Of a DNA stretch of 64,000 bases, positions 6,780 through 41,912 are shown in pieces. The notes under the pieces are model-generated. The model saw only the letters and a list, made by a program, of their open reading frames with translations. It was not told where the DNA came from and searched no databases. Position numbers and translations under genes: made by a program. This DNA is from Stanieria cyanosphaera PCC 7437. GTDB lineage: Bacteria > Cyanobacteriota > Cyanobacteriia > Cyanobacteriales > Xenococcaceae. Position 1 is the first letter of the stretch. Every line of letters starts with the position of its first letter. The stretch spans positions 574,001-638,000 of the forward strand of contig NC_019748.1 in assembly GCF_000317575.1 (NCBI RefSeq), written 5' to 3'.

Positions 6780-8342
6780 TTAGAAAGTAAAGGTGGTTCT
6801 TAAGACACCAATAATGGCATCATCAGCATCTTTGTCTCCTCCAGGAGCATTCAACCAAATTACCCCAGGAGTAACAGAAATATTATCGTTTAATTGGTAC
6901 TTGTAGAAACCTTCGACGTGGAGAGGTATATCATCTGTTTCTCCGTTATAAGGTTCTGCACCAACAATAACACCACCTAAACTACCTTCTTTAATCAAGT
7001 CTGGGAAAGCTAAACCAGCACCATAAGACCAAATTTCAGCTTCATCTCCATCACCTGTTTGACTGGCATCGGTGTACATACCAAAAGCGTTGAAGGCAAT
7101 TTTGTCGGAAAGTTGAAACGAGCCTTCCAAACCAAAAGAGTTAGTATTTAATGCTCCAGCTAAAGGATTTTTGGCATTAGGTGTACCCACACCAAGATCG
7201 AAGATAGTGTTATCCTCGGGGGTAAAGTAACCACGAACGTATGTTGCAGCCAACTGGAGTTTCTCAAAAGGACTAAAAGTTACTTGTCCTAAAGCAGAAT
7301 ATTCACCATTGAACAAACCATTACCTTCGCTAGGATCGGGAGCATTACCACCAAAATAACCAGCACTAACAGTTAATTGCTCGAAGGGAGTAAAGTTAAA
7401 TCCGATACCACCACCAGCACCAAGACCAATTTTATAAATCGGACTAGATTCACCAAAGCTAGATAGAGAACCTGTAGCACCAGTAAAAGAATCTAAATAA
7501 GGACTAACAGTGGGAACAAAATCTTGCCACAAAGGATAAGCTGCGGGTAAATAAACTTGAATTTTGTCGCCGATGGGGAAATAGTAAGCTAACCAACCAA
7601 TTTCAACATTATTATCATTGTCAAAATTGTAAGTCAGAGTACCTTGGTCTAAAGGTTCTGTTTCTCCATTAAAGGTACTAGAATTACCTGCATCTAAACG
7701 AGTGTATAAAGAATCTTTACCAGTAAAACTAGAAACAAAGGCTAACCGAACTCGGTTTTGGAAAACAGCTTGGTTATCGTAGTTAAACTCTTGAGCAAGA
7801 CTAAAAACTGCCTCCCCTTGTAGTTTAGTAGTTGTAGAGAATTGATGGTCTTCTAAGAAAGCAGTACGACTTTCTAAATCATCAACTCTGCCTCCTAGGG
7901 TAGCGAGTTCTGCTTCAAACTCTTGAGTCAGTCGATTAATAGTGTCTAAGTCTTCACGTAAAACTGATTCAGAAGAAGCAATCAAACGTTCGATTTGATT
8001 AAGACAAGAATTTAAGCCCGCAGCAAATTCATAACGCGATAAAGCTTGGCTTCCACGATAGGTCTGATTAGGATAACCGACAATACAACCATAACGATCT
8101 ACCAACGAACGAAGTGCTTCATAAGCCCAATCCGTAGGTGAAACGTCTCTGAGTTGATTAACATTTGTAACTTGATTAATCTGATTTTTTTTGCCTTCTT
8201 GGCTGTAGTTTTCTACTTGATTGAGTAACTGACTATTATCAGTCTGAGCTATTAAAGTTTCAGCGTTGCTAGGAATTGCTGCAATAGCTAAACCAACTAG
8301 TGCTGGACTAACCAATAAAAAACCACGTAGTAATCTATACAT
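6780..8342 (-). CDS. Cyanobacterial outer-membrane porin (SLH domain plus OprB barrel; iron-uptake porin type)
   Basis: A 520-residue outer-membrane protein. Order of parts: signal peptide at residues 1-27; an SLH domain at about 66-120 (DVSPTDWAYEALRSLVDRYG, then SRYEFAAGLN) that tethers to peptidoglycan-linked polymer; a coiled coil at about 122-165; and a beta-barrel to the end, closing with the aromatic terminal strand TTFTF. This matches the SomA/SomB-like porins often annotated as iron uptake porin. Such porins pass small solutes and inorganic iron. It is preceded by a 226-base leader after pepA, so it probably has its own promoter, and it has a terminator at 6654-6630. Confidence 0.92.
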   Translation of the reverse strand: MYRLLRGFLLVSPALVGLAIAAIPSNAETLIAQTDNSQLLNQVENYSQEGKKNQINQVTNVNQLRDVSPTDWAYEALRSLVDRYGCIVGYPNQTYRGSQALSRYEFAAGLNSCLNQIERLIASSESVLREDLDTINRLTQEFEAELATLGGRVDDLESRTAFLEDHQFSTTTKLQGEAVFSLAQEFNYDNQAVFQNRVRLAFVSSFTGKDSLYTRLDAGNSSTFNGETEPLDQGTLTYNFDNDNNVEIGWLAYYFPIGDKIQVYLPAAYPLWQDFVPTVSPYLDSFTGATGSLSSFGESSPIYKIGLGAGGGIGFNFTPFEQLTVSAGYFGGNAPDPSEGNGLFNGEYSALGQVTFSPFEKLQLAATYVRGYFTPEDNTIFDLGVGTPNAKNPLAGALNTNSFGLEGSFQLSDKIAFNAFGMYTDASQTGDGDEAEIWSYGAGLAFPDLIKEGSLGGVIVGAEPYNGETDDIPLHVEGFYKYQLNDNISVTPGVIWLNAPGGDKDADDAIIGVLRTTFTF

Positions 8343-8568: not shown

Positions 8569-10041
8569 TTAAGAATTCAGAATCCAGTTCACCAAAGTCC
8601 GTACAGGAAAACCTGTCGCCCCCACATTATTTACACCATTGGGTTTATCTGTCCAAACTGGACCAGCAATATCTAAATGTACCCAAGGAGTATCTTTGAT
8701 AAACTGTTTCAAAAATAAAGCAGCCGTAATTGATCCTCCTGCCCGAGGTCCGGTATTTTTCATATCGGCAATAGCAGATTTCATGCCATCAAAATAAGGC
8801 TCTTCTAGTGGCATTTGCCAAAACTTTTCTCCTGCTAATTCTGCTGCGGTTTTGATTTGATTAGCTAAGTCGTCATCCGTACTCCATAAACCAGCAATCT
8901 GATCTCCTAGGGCAATGATACAAGCTCCTGTTAAAGTTGCTAAATCTACGATCGCGTCTAAGCCTAATTTTTCCGCATAGATTAGCGCATCAGCCAATGT
9001 TAATCTTCCTTCAGCATCAGTATTGTTAACCTCAATGGTTTTGCCATTAGCAGCTTTGAGGATATCACCAGGATGCATTGCACGACCACTAATCATGTTT
9101 TCTGTAGCTGCACAAATAAAATGAACTTCTACATTGGGTTTGAGTTGAGCGATCGCTTTAGCTGCACCAAGCGTAGCTGCACCACCACCCATATCCATTT
9201 TCATGGTTTCAATGCCACTGCCCGAAACTTTGAGATTGAGTCCGCCAGAATCAAAAGTCAAACTCTTGCCCACAATAGCTACTTTACGCTTTGGTGTTTC
9301 TGTTGGTTTGTAGGTAAGATGAATAAACTTAGGTGGGATGTCAGAAGCTTTGGCAACACCTAAAAACGCTCCCATTCCTTGTTCAAACTGCTCACAATCT
9401 TCCTGTTCAAGAATTTCCAGACTCAAACCATACTCAGACGCGATCGCTTCTGCGGTAGCTGCCATTGTCAGAGGAGTAACCTCGTTAGCAGGAGCATTAA
9501 CTAACTCTCGTGCCAAAATCACCCCAGAAGCCACAATTTCAGCCCGTTTAATTGCTGCATCCTGACCATTTAAACCGAGTAAATCAATAGTTTCTAATTT
9601 GATTTCTTTTTCTTCTGGTTCAGACTTAAAACGATTATCTTGATGAAGAGCTAGTAAAATTCCTTCAGTCATTGTTTGAGCAACTGCATCTGGCGAGCCT
9701 TGAATAGGAAAACTTATAGCAAGACTGTGGTCTTTTTTCGCTAATCGAACGACTGTAGCAGCAGTATTCTGATAATTTTCTAGTTTAAATTTATCTGACT
9801 TACCCAAACCTACCAAGATCAGTTTGCGGAGGGAACTATTGCCCATTAAACGAGTTACTGCTGTAGTCCCGCTTTTACCTTCAAATTCTTCTACGGCAAT
9901 TAATTCTTGAATTGTACCTGCTAATTGTTCATTCAGTTGTGCTAGCTCGCCAGTTAATTCTGTTTGTCCTTCAAAAATACCGATAGCGAGTGTATCACCT
10001 GTCCAATCTAATAATGACCGATCTGTAGCTAGAATTTGCAT
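8569..10041 (-). CDS. pepA: Leucyl aminopeptidase PepA (M17)
   Basis: A 490-residue M17 metallo-aminopeptidase. The two-metal active site is visible in [13 protein letters not shown], in the [10 protein letters not shown] segment, and in [15 protein letters not shown], the family signature. The N-terminal macro-like domain (about 1-160) and C-terminal catalytic domain are both complete. It removes N-terminal residues from peptides in the cytoplasm and forms hexamers in known members. The ATG at 10041 is divergent from mreB with 277 bases between them. Nothing suggests linkage with the downstream porin gene beyond shared direction. Confidence 0.96.
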
Positions 10042-10318
10042 TCTTAATTTTTGCTCTCTTGAAATAGGATATGTTTTATTGTGACATTAACTATTTTGCC
10101 GAACATTGCACGCACTAAGAGCGATTGATGAGATAAAATTTTGTCGTAGCGTCGAGGAAAATACGATTAACTTTGCCATTAGTTTAAGCAAAGTACAGTA
10201 ATTTCAACTATTGAAAGATAATTGAGTTTCGACATAATTGCTATATTGGGTGTAAATTGGATTCGACTCATATCAGATCAAGCAATAATACAAAAATTAC
10301 CGGGAGTGATAAATCAAC

Positions 10319-11365
10319 GTGGGGTTTTTTAAACGTTTAACCCTGTCAAGGGATATAGGAATTGATCTAGGTACTGCCAACACGCTTATATACATATCAG
10401 GCAAAGGAATTGTTTTGGAAGAGCCTTCAGTGGTGGCAATTGATAGCAAAACAGAAGAACCAAGAGCGGTAGGCAGAGAAGCTAAATGTTTATTGGGGAA
10501 AGCTCCAGAAAACATCCAAGCAATTCGTCCTCTGAAAAATGGTGTGATTGCCGATTTTGATGCTACGGAAATAATGCTCAAGGAATTTATTCGTCAAGTC
10601 TACGAAGGTAATCCTTTGGTTCATCCTCGAATGGTAATTGGTATTCCTAGTGGGGTGACTAAAGTAGAGCGCAGAGCAGTGATGGAAGCTGCTGCCCAAG
10701 CAGGAGCAAGAGAGGTAGATTTAATAGAAGAACCCCTTGCAGCAGCCATTGGTGCAGGATTACCCGTTACCGAACCGATTGGCAATCTGATTGTTGATAT
10801 TGGTGGTGGAACGACAGAAGTAGCGGTAATTAGTTCTCAAGGTAAGGTTGTCAGTGAATCGATTCGGATTGCTGGTGATGAATTAACTTGGTCAATTGCT
10901 AACTATTTGAAACATACTTATAAACTTGCCATTGGAGAAAATACGGCTGAAAACCTTAAAATTAAATTAGCTTCGGTTCATCCCATCGGTAAAGTAGAAC
11001 AAGACCAATCAACTGTCGAAGTAAGAGGTCTTCATCTTGTTTCTGGATTACCTAGAACGGTTACCCTTAAAGTAGTAGAGATTCGGGAAGCTATCTTAGA
11101 TCCAGTTAAAAAAATTGTCGAAGCAGTTAAAATTACTCTCGAACAAACTCCTCCCGATTTGGCAGCAGATATTATTGATCGAGGAATTATGTTGGCAGGA
11201 GGTGGGGCTAATTTGAAGGGATTAGATGCTTTGATTAGTCATGAAACTGGAATTGTAACTCATATAGCTCCTGAACCATTAAAATGTGTGGCGTTGGGTA
11301 CTGGTCGAGTTCTAGAAGATAAAACTCTTGACAAGGTTTTGAGCGATCGCTCTCAATTAATTTGA
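10319..11365 (+). CDS. mreB: Rod-shape actin homologue MreB
   Basis: A 348-residue actin-fold ATPase. Phosphate loops are visible in RDIGIDLGTANTLIY (residues about 10-24) and LIVDIGGGTTEVAVIS (about 157-172), and the adenosine motif MLAGGGANLKGLD is near 292. MreB filaments under the inner membrane steer elongation-mode wall synthesis with MreC and MreD. The start is a GTG at 10319, about 12 bases after a GGGAG Shine-Dalgarno (10302-10306); no ATG fits the conserved N-terminus. It is first in mreB-mreC-mreD, with 56 bases before mreC. Confidence 0.97.
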   Translation: MGFFKRLTLSRDIGIDLGTANTLIYISGKGIVLEEPSVVAIDSKTEEPRAVGREAKCLLGKAPENIQAIRPLKNGVIADFDATEIMLKEFIRQVYEGNPLVHPRMVIGIPSGVTKVERRAVMEAAAQAGAREVDLIEEPLAAAIGAGLPVTEPIGNLIVDIGGGTTEVAVISSQGKVVSESIRIAGDELTWSIANYLKHTYKLAIGENTAENLKIKLASVHPIGKVEQDQSTVEVRGLHLVSGLPRTVTLKVVEIREAILDPVKKIVEAVKITLEQTPPDLAADIIDRGIMLAGGGANLKGLDALISHETGIVTHIAPEPLKCVALGTGRVLEDKTLDKVLSDRSQLI

Positions 11366-11421
11366 GTTGTCCTAGCTCTTAATTAACTCTTGATAAACAT
11401 TAACCAATTAAGCCTAAACTA

Positions 11422-12177
11422 ATGCATCGTTGGTGGGATCGATACGGTTTTCAAGCAACTGTTACGGTTGCAGTTATTAGCATTGCTTGGTTACTTAGAC
11501 AAAGCCAAACCGCAGTCTTAACTGAAGCTTATTATTTTTTGGTAAGTCCTTTTCAGTCAAAACAGCAGTTGATTTTGGAAGATAGATTAAGTAATGCTCG
11601 TATTTTGGAATTAGAACAGCAAGTTATTGAACTAGAACAGGAAAATCGACAATTTAAACAGTTAATTAATTCTGATACTACCAAAAAATCCTCTCAAATA
11701 ATCGCCCCAATTATTGGACGAAGTATCCAAGGTTGGTGGAATCAAGTTACTTTGGGTAAAGGTAGTAAGGATGGTATTCAACCAGGATTTATCGTTTCAG
11801 GAATTGGTGGAGTAGTAGGTAGAGTTATTCAAGTTACTCCTCATACTAGTAGAGTTGCTTTGATTAGCGATCCTGATAGTCGGATCGGGGCAATAGTAAG
11901 TCGTAATCGTCAGTTGGGATTTATTCAGGGTAAAGATTCTCAAACCTTGGTGATGCGTTTTTTTACTAAAGTTACCGATCTTAAACCTGGAGATGCGATC
12001 GCAACTTCTAATTTAAGTAATCTCTATCCACCCGGTTTACCAATTGGCAAAGTCAAATCGGTTAACTTTGATACTAGTTCAGTTCCCGAAGCAGAAGTTG
12101 AATTAACTGCCCCCATTGATGTTTTGGAATGGGTTGTAGTTGATCCTTTTAAACCAAAAATAAACCTGAGTCCGTAA
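11422..12177 (+). CDS. mreC: Rod shape-determining protein MreC
   Basis: A 251-residue bitopic protein. It has a short cytoplasmic tail, one membrane helix at about 11-27, a coiled coil at about 52-85, and a periplasmic beta-domain with typical MreC strings (VTLGKGSKDGIQPGFIVS, GVVGRVIQVTPHTSRVALISD, then GDAIATSNLSNLYPPGLPIG). MreC links cytoplasmic MreB to the periplasmic wall synthases. Its TAA is followed directly by the mreD ATG at 12178, so the two are translationally coupled. Confidence 0.96.
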   Translation: MHRWWDRYGFQATVTVAVISIAWLLRQSQTAVLTEAYYFLVSPFQSKQQLILEDRLSNARILELEQQVIELEQENRQFKQLINSDTTKKSSQIIAPIIGRSIQGWWNQVTLGKGSKDGIQPGFIVSGIGGVVGRVIQVTPHTSRVALISDPDSRIGAIVSRNRQLGFIQGKDSQTLVMRFFTKVTDLKPGDAIATSNLSNLYPPGLPIGKVKSVNFDTSSVPEAEVELTAPIDVLEWVVVDPFKPKINLSP

Positions 12178-12723
12178 ATGTTCAATCTCACTAAAACTCC
12201 TAACGGTTTCTTACAATTATTAAATGGATTGATTATTTGCACTTCTGTTTGGCTCTGCTCAATCTTAGTTTTACTTCATTTACCAGGGATGAAGTTACTA
12301 GGAATGAGTCCCAATTGGTTTTTAATTTGGCTGGTTGCCTGGAGTGTCAAGCGGAAAGTTTGGCAAGCTGCGATCGCAGGATTAGCCTTGGGTTTAATTT
12401 ATGATGGCATGACTACTTCTGAGCCTTCTCACATCTTAAGTTTTATTTTAGTAAGTGTTTTAACTACTAAACTCAATAAACAGCGATATATCGGCGAAGA
12501 TTTTATTTCTGTAGCTTTAATTGTCTTTTTTATGGCAATTATGACGGAAACTCTCTTAGCAATTCAATCGATTTGGCAATCGACTCTTTCTTTGGGTGTA
12601 ATTTGGCAAAATTATTGGCGTATTGCGATTGTTTCAGCAGTTTTGAGCAGTCTGTGGGCTCCTGCTCTTTATTTTCCTCTAGAAAGATGGTGGGAATATG
12701 TTCGTCAGCAAGAAAGACTCTAA
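12178..12723 (+). CDS. mreD: Rod shape-determining protein MreD
   Basis: A 181-residue membrane protein with about five helices and no soluble domain, as expected for MreD. It begins at the base after the mreC stop, so the gene is identified by position as well as topology. The sequence itself is weakly conserved (PNWFLIWLVAWSVKRKVWQAAIAGLALGLIYDGM). It completes the mreBCD elongasome operon. It ends with ERL and no further gene of the operon follows. Confidence 0.92.
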   Translation: MFNLTKTPNGFLQLLNGLIICTSVWLCSILVLLHLPGMKLLGMSPNWFLIWLVAWSVKRKVWQAAIAGLALGLIYDGMTTSEPSHILSFILVSVLTTKLNKQRYIGEDFISVALIVFFMAIMTETLLAIQSIWQSTLSLGVIWQNYWRIAIVSAVLSSLWAPALYFPLERWWEYVRQQERL

Positions 12724-12873
12724 ATTAATTATTTGTTTAGATCAAAATCAAGGAAAGAAACAGTATTAGAGATTAATATTTTTCCTGCCAATTGTTTTTT
12801 TGCTCAGGAAGATGTTTTAAATAGCGATCGCTTGATTGAAGGGTAAGATCAAGTCTGTTTAATTAATTGATTT

Positions 12874-13275
12874 TTACTCCATATTATTATTATTATCGTT
12901 GCCAAAAACTCGATCTATGATGCGACGATTTTCGACTTGTAATCCTCTCACTTCGCTTTGCATTTCCCTAATGTCTGTTTGCATGGTTTCAATATTGGTT
13001 TGCATAGTCTGAATTACTCTGATTGAATCGATAAACATTTCAGTTGCTCTTCCCATTTGTTCTGTAAGTCGATCTACTCTATTAGTTAAACCAGCGATCG
13101 CTTCAAGATTAGTTTCAACTTTTTGACCGATTCGCTCAATCATTTCATTATTAGTTGCGACTTTTTCGCTTAAACTATTAATCTTGGCTGTATTACTATG
13201 ACTGAGTTTAATTGCTGATTGAAGAATTTTTTCAATTTGGGTTAGTCTTTGTTGAGGGGTTAGCTCTTGGGTCAT
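12874..13275 (-). CDS. Small coiled-coil protein of unknown function
   Basis: A 133-residue, strongly helical, acidic protein. Almost the whole length is predicted coiled coil: heptad-like runs of I/L/M with Q, E and T, including repeated MQTNIETMQTDIREMQSEVRGLQ. It ends in a run of Asn encoded by AAT/AAC repeats. This type of short coiled-coil open frame is frequent in cyanobacteria, and some are annotated DUF4164-like or chromosome-partition-like. I cannot assign one. No membrane helix or signal peptide is present. It may multimerise or be a scaffold; nothing nearby identifies a partner. Confidence 0.6.
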   Translation of the reverse strand: MTQELTPQQRLTQIEKILQSAIKLSHSNTAKINSLSEKVATNNEMIERIGQKVETNLEAIAGLTNRVDRLTEQMGRATEMFIDSIRVIQTMQTNIETMQTDIREMQSEVRGLQVENRRIIDRVFGNDNNNNME

Positions 13276-13331
13276 TTTATCGAAGAATTTTTAAATTTAA
13301 TCCTAATTATAAAGCGATCGCTCTTCGTTTA

Positions 13332-34653: not shown

Positions 34654-34854
34654 ATGCAATATCGCCGAGCCAAAGTCCCAGGAAGTACCTATTTTTTTAC
34701 TTTAGTCACTCACAATCGGCATCCTATTCTCTGTGAGCCTGAAAATATCAATTTATTGCGCGATTGTTTTAAAAGAATAATGAATAAGCATCCTTTTACA
34801 ATTGATGCAATTGCAATTTTATGGATAATCAAAGGATTCGGCAATAGGACTTAG
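34654..34854 (+). pseudogene. REP-associated tyrosine transposase (RAYT) N-terminal relic 1
   Basis: The first about 55 codons read as a RAYT/IS200-like start: MQYRRAKVPGSTYFF, then LVTHNRHPILCEPENINLL and HPFTIDAIAIL. The match stops just before the expected catalytic HUH histidines (LPDHIH in intact members). The remaining codons to 34854 are antisense to the hicB relic. It cannot be active. RAYTs normally mobilise REP hairpins; the REP-like sequence just upstream fits. Confidence 0.8.
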
Positions 34855-35740: not shown

Positions 35741-35866
35741 ATGCAATATCGTCGAGCCAGATCCCTAGGAAGCACCTATTTTTTTACTTTAGTCACTCAC
35801 AATCGTCGTTGTTTTCTCTGTAAACCTGAAAATACCGATTGGCATGGATTAGTTTGTATTTGTTGA
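35741..35866 (+). pseudogene. RAYT relic 2 (about 42 codons)
   Basis: MQYRRARSLGSTYFF and LVTHNRRCFLCKPENT match relic 1 and RAYT N-termini. It then breaks into DWHGLVCIC and a stop. The DW tail might be the original C-terminus after a large internal deletion. A REP-like fragment (GAGGAACGAAACCTAACCTAC) follows at about 35869-35890, so the remnant element has repeats on both sides. Confidence 0.7.
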
Positions 35867-36049
35867 GTTGAGGAACGAAACCTAACCTACAAGATCGGCG
35901 ATCAACTAAGATCACACTTTTTGTCAACACTTCAATATATAAATAAATTAATTAATATATGTTTTAAATATATCGTGATTTAAGGATGTATAAAGACAAA
36001 AAAAAATTATTTTTATACATCGAAATTATCACATGGAGTTTTAGTTTCA
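35867..36049. other. Spacer between the RAYT relic and the nuclease-like locus
   Basis: About 180 bases, strongly A/T rich, with a REP-like fragment at its start. It should contain the promoter for the membrane/nuclease locus; nothing else is evident. Confidence 0.45.
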
Positions 36050-36139
36050 ATGAAAAAAGAATATATTAAAGAAAGTATTTTAGCTGCTTCCGCTGCAATG
36101 TTACTTACTGGATTAATAGGATTAATACCATCTAAATAA
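36050..36139 (+). CDS. Short open frame encoding one membrane helix, upstream of and probably once fused to the nuclease-like gene
   Basis: ATG at 36050 encodes 29 residues, ending PSK and a TAA: a basic start (KKEYIKES) and one hydrophobic helix (ILAASAAMLLTGLIGLI). Right after the stop, the next gene's frame, open upstream of its TTG, gives NNPKFFLLLSAVGAGGVTLALKR, a second helix. Removing a single base near 36134-36137 joins the two into PSNNPKFF and one continuous protein. So this is either a frameshifted N-terminus, a sequencing error, or a separate tiny gene. Confidence 0.55.
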   Translation: MKKEYIKESILAASAAMLLTGLIGLIPSK

Positions 36140-36188
36140 TCCCAAATTTTTTCTATTACTAAGTGCTGTAGGAGCAGGTGGAGTAACA

Positions 36189-37478
36189 TTGGCTCTTAAA
36201 AGATTTGAGTTAAAACTTACAGAAAAAATAAAACAAGATATTAAAACACAACTTAATTATCATGAATCTACACAAAATCGACTCCATTATCTTGGAAATC
36301 AGTTGCAAAATCTTGATGATATCTTGCAAAATCTACAAAAAAATATCCCATCAGAAGTTATAACAGAGAATGAAATCAATAGCTTTCTTAATCTACATCA
36401 GGCGGAATTTGAGCAAAAACTACTAAAAATTAATGGACAATTAAAAGCTTCAATAGAAACATTAAATCGTCAGAATCAATCAGCACAAGATCAGATTAAA
36501 AATATCAAACAGAAGTTAAATACTGTTGAACAATCTAACAAACCACAGCCTGCTACTCAGGAATGTTTACCTACAAATATTAACCAGGAAGAAATAGAAA
36601 TTTCTAAAGGTGATGCAGTTATCAAATGGCTAAACGAGCGGGATATCAAAGTTGAAAAACATTTTCTAACAAAAGGTTCGGCGTACGATCAAGCATTCAA
36701 GAAACTAGCAATCTATTTAGGGAAAAACTACGCTAGTCTTGCTCAATTTCATGAAAAACTGATAAATAGTATTAACCAACATGGTAATAAATTTCAGTTA
36801 CCTCTGAGAAATCAAACTCAAAATGATCTTCAAATTCACACTCAATTTGGTTCATATTTAAAAAATGCTGGCTGTTTTTCAACTTATTATTATGATCAAA
36901 AAACTAAAATTATAAATTTTGCCGTTCATGCCAGAGAAGATTTAAAAAGGTTTTTATGTGGTGATTGGTTTGAGCTTTTTATATTTGATAAAATTTCCAA
37001 ATTCTTTAGATCACGAGAATTAAGCTACGAAAGTTTAGTTAATGCCAAAGTAATTTTTCCAAATAATGACATATGTGAATTAGATTTGATTTTTCTAGTC
37101 CAAGAACATCTCTTTTGGATAGAATGCAAAGCAGGTAAGAACTTAGATAATATTGAGCGATATCTGCCTAAATACTCCAATAATCATCAAAATTTTTTAC
37201 AAATTCCTAAACCAAATGCTTTGATAGTGTGTCTGCATCTTAATAACGAAAAAGCAAATATACGAACGGCTGGGTGGAAAAATGTAACAGTAACAAATCC
37301 AGAATTACTTCTAACATCAATTCAATCTGTTCTAGAAGGAACTGTTAACTATGAAATAGCAGACGAGAACAATAAACAACCAATAACACCCAATTCTGAA
37401 AAAAATGGTGATTTAGTTTATCTATATCCTTCAACTATTTCAGAAGATAAATCAAGTGTTCAAGCTTTAGTGTTGTAA
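36189..37478 (+). CDS. Coiled-coil protein with a DUF1887/Card1-like PD-(D/E)XK nuclease domain
   Basis: A 429-residue protein counted from a TTG at 36189; no better start lies in frame. Residues 1-115 are coiled coil. A middle region (about 140-255) looks like a winged-helix or similar linker (YDQAFKKLAIYLGKNYASLAQF). The C-terminal domain at about 256-385 fits the restriction-endonuclease-like nuclease of DUF1887/Card1 proteins: FLCGDWFE with Glu262, ICELDLIFLVQEHLFWIECKAGK with Asp299, Glu312 and Lys314. Known Card1 proteins have an N-terminal CARF sensor; here it is replaced by a coiled coil and, with the upstream frame, two membrane helices. Probably a membrane-linked defence nuclease, inferred. 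Confidence 0.7.
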   Translation: MALKRFELKLTEKIKQDIKTQLNYHESTQNRLHYLGNQLQNLDDILQNLQKNIPSEVITENEINSFLNLHQAEFEQKLLKINGQLKASIETLNRQNQSAQDQIKNIKQKLNTVEQSNKPQPATQECLPTNINQEEIEISKGDAVIKWLNERDIKVEKHFLTKGSAYDQAFKKLAIYLGKNYASLAQFHEKLINSINQHGNKFQLPLRNQTQNDLQIHTQFGSYLKNAGCFSTYYYDQKTKIINFAVHAREDLKRFLCGDWFELFIFDKISKFFRSRELSYESLVNAKVIFPNNDICELDLIFLVQEHLFWIECKAGKNLDNIERYLPKYSNNHQNFLQIPKPNALIVCLHLNNEKANIRTAGWKNVTVTNPELLLTSIQSVLEGTVNYEIADENNKQPITPNSEKNGDLVYLYPSTISEDKSSVQALVL

Positions 37479-41243: not shown

Positions 41244-41912
41244 ATGTTTATTCCTTATCAACCAACTTATCAAACGATTAATCGTAAAAAATATTTTTGT
41301 ATTGATAATTTGATTTATCCTTCAGTTACCAGTATTTTATCTGCTACTAAACCCCAAAAAGATAAACAAGCTTTACAGCGATGGCGTAACAAAATTGGCA
41401 AAGCACAAGCTCAAAAAATTACTATAGATGCTTGTAATCGGGGTATTTCTTTGCACTCAGGCATAAAATCTTTTCTCAATCGACAAGAAATCCCACCAGA
41501 AATTAATGATAATCCTTATTGGCATTCAATTGAGCCTGTTTTAAACCAAATAGAACAAGTTCATCTCATTGAATCTTTTACTTACCACTCTAAGCATCAA
41601 TATGCAGGTTATTTTGATTGTTTAGGAGAATGGCAAGGAGAACTTTGTGTATTTGATTGGAAAACTGCGTCTCGTCCTAAAAAAACTGAATGGATTGGTG
41701 ATTATTTTTTACAAGTTGTAGCTTATCTTGCTGCTATTAACAATTTATATCAGGTGAAAATTAATCAAGGAATTATTGCAGTTGCACTACCCGAAGAACC
41801 AGCCCAAATTTTTACTTTAAATCTAGATAATTTGCAAGTGTATTGGGAGCAATTTTTACAAAGATTAGCTCTTTGGCAACAACTTTACTCCGATAAAATT
41901 GTTGATAATTAA
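41244..41912 (+). CDS. PD-(D/E)XK exonuclease-like protein (MGME1/RecB family)
   Basis: A 222-residue protein with a RecB/MGME1-type nuclease core: AGYFDCLGEWQGELCVFDWKTASRPKKTEW provides the Asp, Asp and Lys of the motif, followed by YFLQVVAYLAAINNLY, the typical Q-x-x-x-Y helix. An early VTSILSATKPQKDKQALQRWRNKIGK matches the family's substrate helix. It probably degrades single-stranded or nicked DNA in the cytoplasm. It stands alone; no helicase partner is nearby. Confidence 0.82.
   Translation: MFIPYQPTYQTINRKKYFCIDNLIYPSVTSILSATKPQKDKQALQRWRNKIGKAQAQKITIDACNRGISLHSGIKSFLNRQEIPPEINDNPYWHSIEPVLNQIEQVHLIESFTYHSKHQYAGYFDCLGEWQGELCVFDWKTASRPKKTEWIGDYFLQVVAYLAAINNLYQVKINQGIIAVALPEEPAQIFTLNLDNLQVYWEQFLQRLALWQQLYSDKIVDN

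Follow-up and report, generated by a model that had tools for sequence, protein, structure and literature searches.

The open reading frame and its surroundings

We have analyzed a candidate nuclease gene of Stanieria cyanosphaera PCC 7437 within a stretch of 64,000 nucleotides of genomic DNA, referred to here as the window. The open reading frame lies on the forward strand (36189-37478), begins with TTG and encodes 429 amino acids; the frame has no earlier start than this TTG, and the next ones are found 38 codons downstream. All parts of the gene described here are on the + strand. Residues 1-118 (36189..36542) form two long helices in the AlphaFold model, a possible coiled coil, and the N-terminus is modelled as helices only. 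Residues 142-250 (36612..36938) correspond to a middle domain, the counterpart of the wHTH-like domain found between CARF and nuclease in Card1 and Can2, and residues 251-384 (36939..37340) to a PD-(D/E)XK nuclease domain. The remaining residues 385-429 and the stop codon (37341..37478) make up a tail of low pLDDT. An earlier note on this DNA had described the N-terminus as a coiled coil of about 110 residues; the long helices, which span about 118 residues, agree with that description, and a crude heptad test for a coiled coil was not significant (289 of 2000 shuffles did as well).

Two hydrophobic segments are encoded 5' of the start codon, in different frames. The first, TM1, occupies a frame of 29 codons (MKKEYIKESILAASAAMLLTGLIGLIPSK*; 36050..36139) that opens with an ATG at 36050, reaches a stop at 36139 and is out of frame with the nuclease ORF. 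The second, TM2 (NNPKFFLLLSAVGAGGVTLA; 36126..36188), is in the nuclease frame but precedes the TTG. TM1 resembles the first segment of intact homologues, in which TM1 and TM2 form one N-terminal hairpin of a single protein; the window copy is therefore frameshifted between the two. The frameshift may be a mutation or an assembly error; no evidence for a programmed frameshift between TM1 and TM2 was found. Because of it the protein made from the window copy is possibly soluble, or the gene decaying, and the copy may be soluble, damaged or misassembled. It is not the best specimen of its protein kind.

Decay could have gone further, so that the window copy would be the remnant of a pseudogene that has lost the TM1 frame and a C-terminal domain. 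The frameshift and the position of the available starts point in this direction, as do the absence of a copy from a genome of the same genus (G001) and the RAYT fragments and IS elements that flank the gene. Against this, all 429 codons are still open, every catalytic residue is intact, and short forms that end before the C-terminal domain are common among the relatives. On balance we regard a pseudogene as a real possibility, though the less probable account of this copy.

The genes around the nuclease, named by reading, include HicBA, RelBE, RAYT fragments, a glycolate-oxidase-like gene and an IS200/IS605-type pair. Two REP-associated (Y1) transposase-like fragments (34654-34854 and 35742-35870) flank RelBE upstream of the nuclease. 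Neither MoxR nor VMAP genes were seen near the window gene, which stands alone. Type III CRISPR is likewise absent beside it, the neighbours being toxin-antitoxin, IS and housekeeping genes; a GGDD-bearing Cas10 ORF is present in the host 79 kb away.

Fold and catalytic residues of the nuclease core

The window protein matches the Pfam Card1_endonuc family (PF09002) with an E value of 7.8e-6; its score of 25.9 bits in the protein scan is just under the curated cut-off of 26.4 bits and its score of 27.4 bits in the genome scan just over it. This is the single PF09002 match of the genome scan in the host. The PADLOC CARF_PDDEXK model matches the protein with E=1.9e-11, and a profile of 56 relatives matched the PDB sequences of Can2 (2e-9), Card1 (2e-8) and VC1899 (3e-7). 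The AlphaFold model, built with these 56 relatives, is confident across the greater part of the core (residues 142-384), and this part of it matches the structures of Cdn1 (Z 17.6), Can2 (15.8), VC1899 (14.3) and Card1 (12.9 and 12.4), with a Foldseek match of the model at E 1.3e-10. In nearly all the matched structures the matched chain range starts just past the CARF domain. No CARF domain was found in the window protein by the Pfam scan up to E=1 or in the AlphaFold model. The window ORF is the complete post-CARF, or effector, half of Card1/Can2, namely the middle domain and the PD-(D/E)XK nuclease. The Card1-type nuclease fold and the loss of the CARF sensor, both proposed in the earlier note, are thus borne out by the structural comparison and the domain scan.

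The alignment of the 56 relatives, which are drawn from many phyla, keeps ten of the 243 core positions in at least 95% of rows, far from what is expected by chance: G178, L224, F255, G258, W260, E262, E297, D299, E312 and K314. The FLCGDWFE motif and the residues Glu262, Asp299, Glu312 and Lys314, singled out previously, lie where they had been placed, and these four residues are invariant in all 56 rows. Their codons, with that of Glu297, are located on the + strand at 36972-36974 (Glu262), 37077-37079 (Glu297), 37083-37085 (Asp299), 37122-37124 (Glu312) and 37128-37130 (Lys314). Glu297, Asp299, Glu312 and Lys314 align with Glu276, Asp278, Glu291 and Lys293 of SthCan2 and with Glu292, Asp294, Glu308 and Lys310 of Card1, and Asp299, Glu312 and Lys314 map onto catalytic residues of Card1/Can2. 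The inactivated nuclease variant of SthCan2 is E276A/D278A (PMC7969007), and a D294N structure of Card1 is present in the PDB. The window protein displays the Card1/Can2 pattern of a wHTH-like middle domain and a PD-(D/E)XK domain with E-x-D...E-x-K. The assignment of the window protein as a nuclease is well supported, and activity is predicted for it from its sequence and model; for the family as a whole we infer nuclease activity from homology, fold and catalytic residues.

Relatives, exchanged front ends and a C-terminal domain

A scan of genome contigs with the single protein gave zero matches, while a motif-alignment search of the genome collection identified 106 loci, of which 80 were kept; the 106 belong to Cyanobacteria, Chloroflexota, Deinococcota, Bacillota, Pseudomonadota, Synergistota and other phyla. 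The distribution is patchy, with a homologue in 18 of 139 good genomes of relatives and a match in 38 of 336 good genomes of the class. Cores lacking CARF are set apart (100/100) in a maximum-likelihood tree from eight of the nine cyanobacterial CARF proteins; the ninth (L158) has a very long branch and its placement is unsure. The window protein belongs to a clade of mostly TM-type proteins with support of 99/99. Some of the cyanobacterial CARF proteins (L153-L155, L159, L161, L167, L170 and L175) carry a degenerate nuclease motif, AISCTT-like in place of IECKT, and judging by these residues they are possibly inactive or regulatory.

The middle and nuclease domains are constant across the family, while the N-terminus varies. 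A hydrophobic segment or hairpin is found at the N-terminus of 24 of the 29 cyanobacterial homologues versus 4 of 62 elsewhere (three interior segments and one from an upstream-extended start), and the cyanobacterial order of hydrophobic hairpin, helical linker and nuclease is conserved among the relatives. The membrane anchor suggested earlier fits the cyanobacterial relatives; in the window copy the frameshift splits the two segments, with TM2 in frame but ahead of the start codon. The expectations of a PD-(D/E)XK fold, of homologues without CARF and of a conserved TM/helix/nuclease order all agree with what was found.

Other front ends are diverse. Thermus copies have a UPF0150/HicB-like N-terminus (E 5.6e-16), Methylococcaceae copies (L105, L109, L117 and L130) have TerD fused directly to the Card1-like core (E 4.6e-51), and copies from Thiotrichales and Methylococcales have zinc ribbons, identified by reading and with weak Pfam support in L111. 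A MarR-like segment precedes the core in Synergistota, short helical segments serve as the front end in some non-cyanobacterial copies, and three copies (L135-L137) look receptor-like, with a TM segment, a presumed periplasmic domain, a second TM segment, a coil and the nuclease core. A possible TIR domain in L099/L106 reached just E=0.039, below the cut-off, and had no PDB match. In sister copies that nest inside the clade of the window protein (99/99), a SAV_2336 N-terminal domain (E 3.8e-114) and an FGE-sulfatase domain are fused to the core, and upstream of these copies lie genes for a MoxR-like AAA ATPase and VMAP-C (L131-L133). In this setting the fused copies are effectors of VMAP ternary conflict systems, described by Kaur et al. 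2020 (PMC7159879), who also reported a new, unnamed REase clade; that clade may or may not be the same nuclease core. The core is a transferable module.

An extra domain of about 160 residues follows the nuclease in many TM-type relatives and in some from Chloroflexota. In the model of one of them (L051; pLDDT 84) this domain (residues 382-540; 7043-7564 of that locus) matches ROQ domains of Roquin from human and mouse with Z 12.0-11.2 in thirteen entries; the best match covers 141 of 149 residues, and the next unrelated match to the region has Z 7.1. Foldseek comparison with isolated ROQ chains gave a probability of 1.00 and target TM scores of 0.6-0.67. Sequence methods gave no support for ROQ identity, and for that reason the domain is called only ROQ-like. 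Where the frame can be read it occurs only with the Card1-like nuclease. The window protein ends before this domain and lacks the ROQ fold. The earlier note had missed the TM1/TM2 frameshift, the exchange of further N-terminal modules, the fusion of VMAP type and the ROQ-like domain.

Genomic context, and proposed activation and role

The neighbourhoods of the relatives consist of housekeeping genes and not defence islands. Among 102 neighbours of 16 relatives no Pfam family is common to more than three; the recurring PADLOC matches among those listed come mostly from PD-T4-6 models, in two proteins that read as protein kinases, and include cas1, and apart from cas1 the listed matches include no clear defence gene. 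A toxin-antitoxin island had been taken to fit a defence role; HicBA and RelBE are indeed close to the window gene, but they are not conserved beside the relatives: no conserved adjacent antitoxin was found, the cyanobacterial relatives have no recurrent neighbour, and both the toxin-antitoxin link and a fixed operon partner were rejected. A search for mobile or phage-borne copies in the phage, plasmid and viral contig collections gave no match. Copies of Thermus, Clostridia and Methylococcales are syntenic inside each group, which fits resident genes rather than mobile defence genes. The family is chromosomal and has no fixed partner; partner genes being absent, it should be called a protein family and not a system.

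Card1 and Can2 are usually seen as effectors that serve type III CRISPR in response to cyclic oligoadenylate, with cA4 or cA3 as the activator. The wHTH-like middle domain and a metal-dependent PD-(D/E)XK domain would together be the effector of the present family, where hairpin and long helices occupy the position of CARF. The hairpin of intact relatives would anchor the protein to a membrane and leave the nuclease on the cytosolic side. Can2 is a homodimer whose composite active site forms once the CARF dimer binds cOA (PMC9704534); the helices might replace this CARF dimerisation and bring two nuclease domains together. Since helices and hairpin stand in the place of CARF, dimerisation or clustering at the membrane is the simplest model. 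Rather than a nucleotide, some disturbance of the membrane, clustering or a protein partner would act as the trigger; the earlier note had likewise proposed activation by membrane or protein contact. Once active, the enzyme would nick or degrade DNA, RNA or both, stalling the cell or the invader. The VMAP and TerD contexts favour a role in stress or conflict, and the ROQ-like domain of the relatives, as modelled, favours RNA as at least one target. We infer both the mode of activation and the stress or defence role, and give a probability of roughly 60% to this reading: a Card1/Can2 effector half whose CARF has been replaced by hairpin and helices, in which a non-nucleotide trigger leads to cutting of DNA, RNA or both in stress or defence.

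A membrane-held nuclease aimed at structured RNA by its ROQ-like domain could instead serve regulated turnover of RNA under stress and not antiviral defence. This is suggested by the ROQ fold match, by the restriction of the domain to this nuclease and by the cutting of single-stranded RNA by Can2 (PMC7969007). Genes for NYN RNases with a membrane segment and long helices also lie nearby in some genomes: in Microseira (L054) and UBA11372 (L056) the nuclease gene directly follows such a gene, and in L087 one is about 7 kb away. The predicted RNA binding follows from a structural model whose ROQ assignment is not seen at sequence level, though, and the window protein and many relatives do without the domain, which makes RNA turnover as the main function rather unlikely. 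NYN RNases that have the plan of the nuclease itself, an N-terminal membrane segment followed by long helices, are encoded at 7803-8876 of L054 and on the - strand at 16754-18073 of L195. NYN as a general partner was rejected; the L195 TM-coil-NYN protein is unmatched in 149 other relatives and plain NYN genes are everywhere, so that the link is merely local. A broader proposal joins the two functions: a membrane-tethered RNA-decay or defence enzyme made of a Card1-type nuclease and a Roquin-like, stem-loop-binding ROQ domain, in a family whose sensor is freely exchanged (membrane hairpin, TM receptor, TerD, UPF0150, zinc ribbon, VMAP). We hold this only tentatively, as an improbable combination.

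An abortive-infection or antiviral gene that is tied to type III CRISPR or to the toxin-antitoxin island, and perhaps switched on by cyclic oligoadenylate from another source, appears unlikelier still, for although the kinship to Can2/Card1, the patchy distribution, the VMAP fusion, the distant Cas10 ORF of the host and the position of the L087 nuclease gene between a GGDD-bearing Cas10-like locus and an RT-cas1-cas2 cluster speak for it, there is no CARF to receive the messenger, no recurrent family among the neighbours and no conserved HicBA/RelBE. In L087, a gene at 9862-13314 that combines a DUF4407 membrane domain with a penicillin-binding-protein-like transglycosylase/transpeptidase lies between the nuclease and RT-cas1-cas2.

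The reading of a Card1/Can2 effector half without CARF can be set beside known systems. The CRISPR ancillary nucleases Can2, Card1 and Cdn1 (DUF1887) have the same wHTH-like middle and PD-(D/E)XK domains and the same catalytic residues, but the window family has hairpin and helices instead of CARF, and the window gene is not beside type III CRISPR. The PADLOC model PDLC01131 PD_DExK (PDB 1XMX; 'same family as the one fused to CARF') matches the window protein with E=3.3e-4, so that 'undescribed system', for which the locus had been proposed as a candidate, was an overstatement, all the more as partner genes are lacking; just 10 of 56 members reach E 0.001 with this model, however, and it includes no membrane or N-terminal architecture. 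VMAP ternary conflict systems (PMC7159879) have sister nuclease cores in effector position with SAV_2336, FGE, MoxR-like AAA and VMAP-C, whereas the window gene has neither MoxR nor VMAP. The transmembrane CRISPR effectors Cap1, Cam1 and Csx23 are membrane-associated likewise, and Cap1 also has a pair of TM helices; these effectors answer to a nucleotide messenger and exert their effect at the membrane, while the window family is a nuclease with no recognisable nucleotide sensor. The Roquin ROQ domain shares its fold with the C-terminal domain of intact relatives, but sequence similarity was not detected and the window protein does not have it.

The window protein is a Card1/Can2-like nuclease variant; it falls outside the family that is defined by a CARF domain and does not make up a multi-gene system. 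A CARF-less subfamily may already have been described in the CARF classification of Makarova 2020. The comparison points to a nuclease family that has been little described and that responds to some signal other than the alarm molecule of CRISPR. The existence of a broad chromosomal branch in which this effector half is kept while the front ends are exchanged implies that the nuclease is a general-purpose output module. If so, Card1 chemistry would be coupled to many signals apart from cyclic oligoadenylate, and the family offers natural chimeras for asking what switches a Card1-type nuclease on. The ROQ-like fold, if genuine, would mean that bacteria, unexpectedly, have a counterpart of the RNA-binding domain known mainly from human Roquin. 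Elsewhere in the window, an ORF of 222 amino acids on the + strand (41244-41912) contains a PD-(D/E)XK exonuclease-like VFDWKTA motif.
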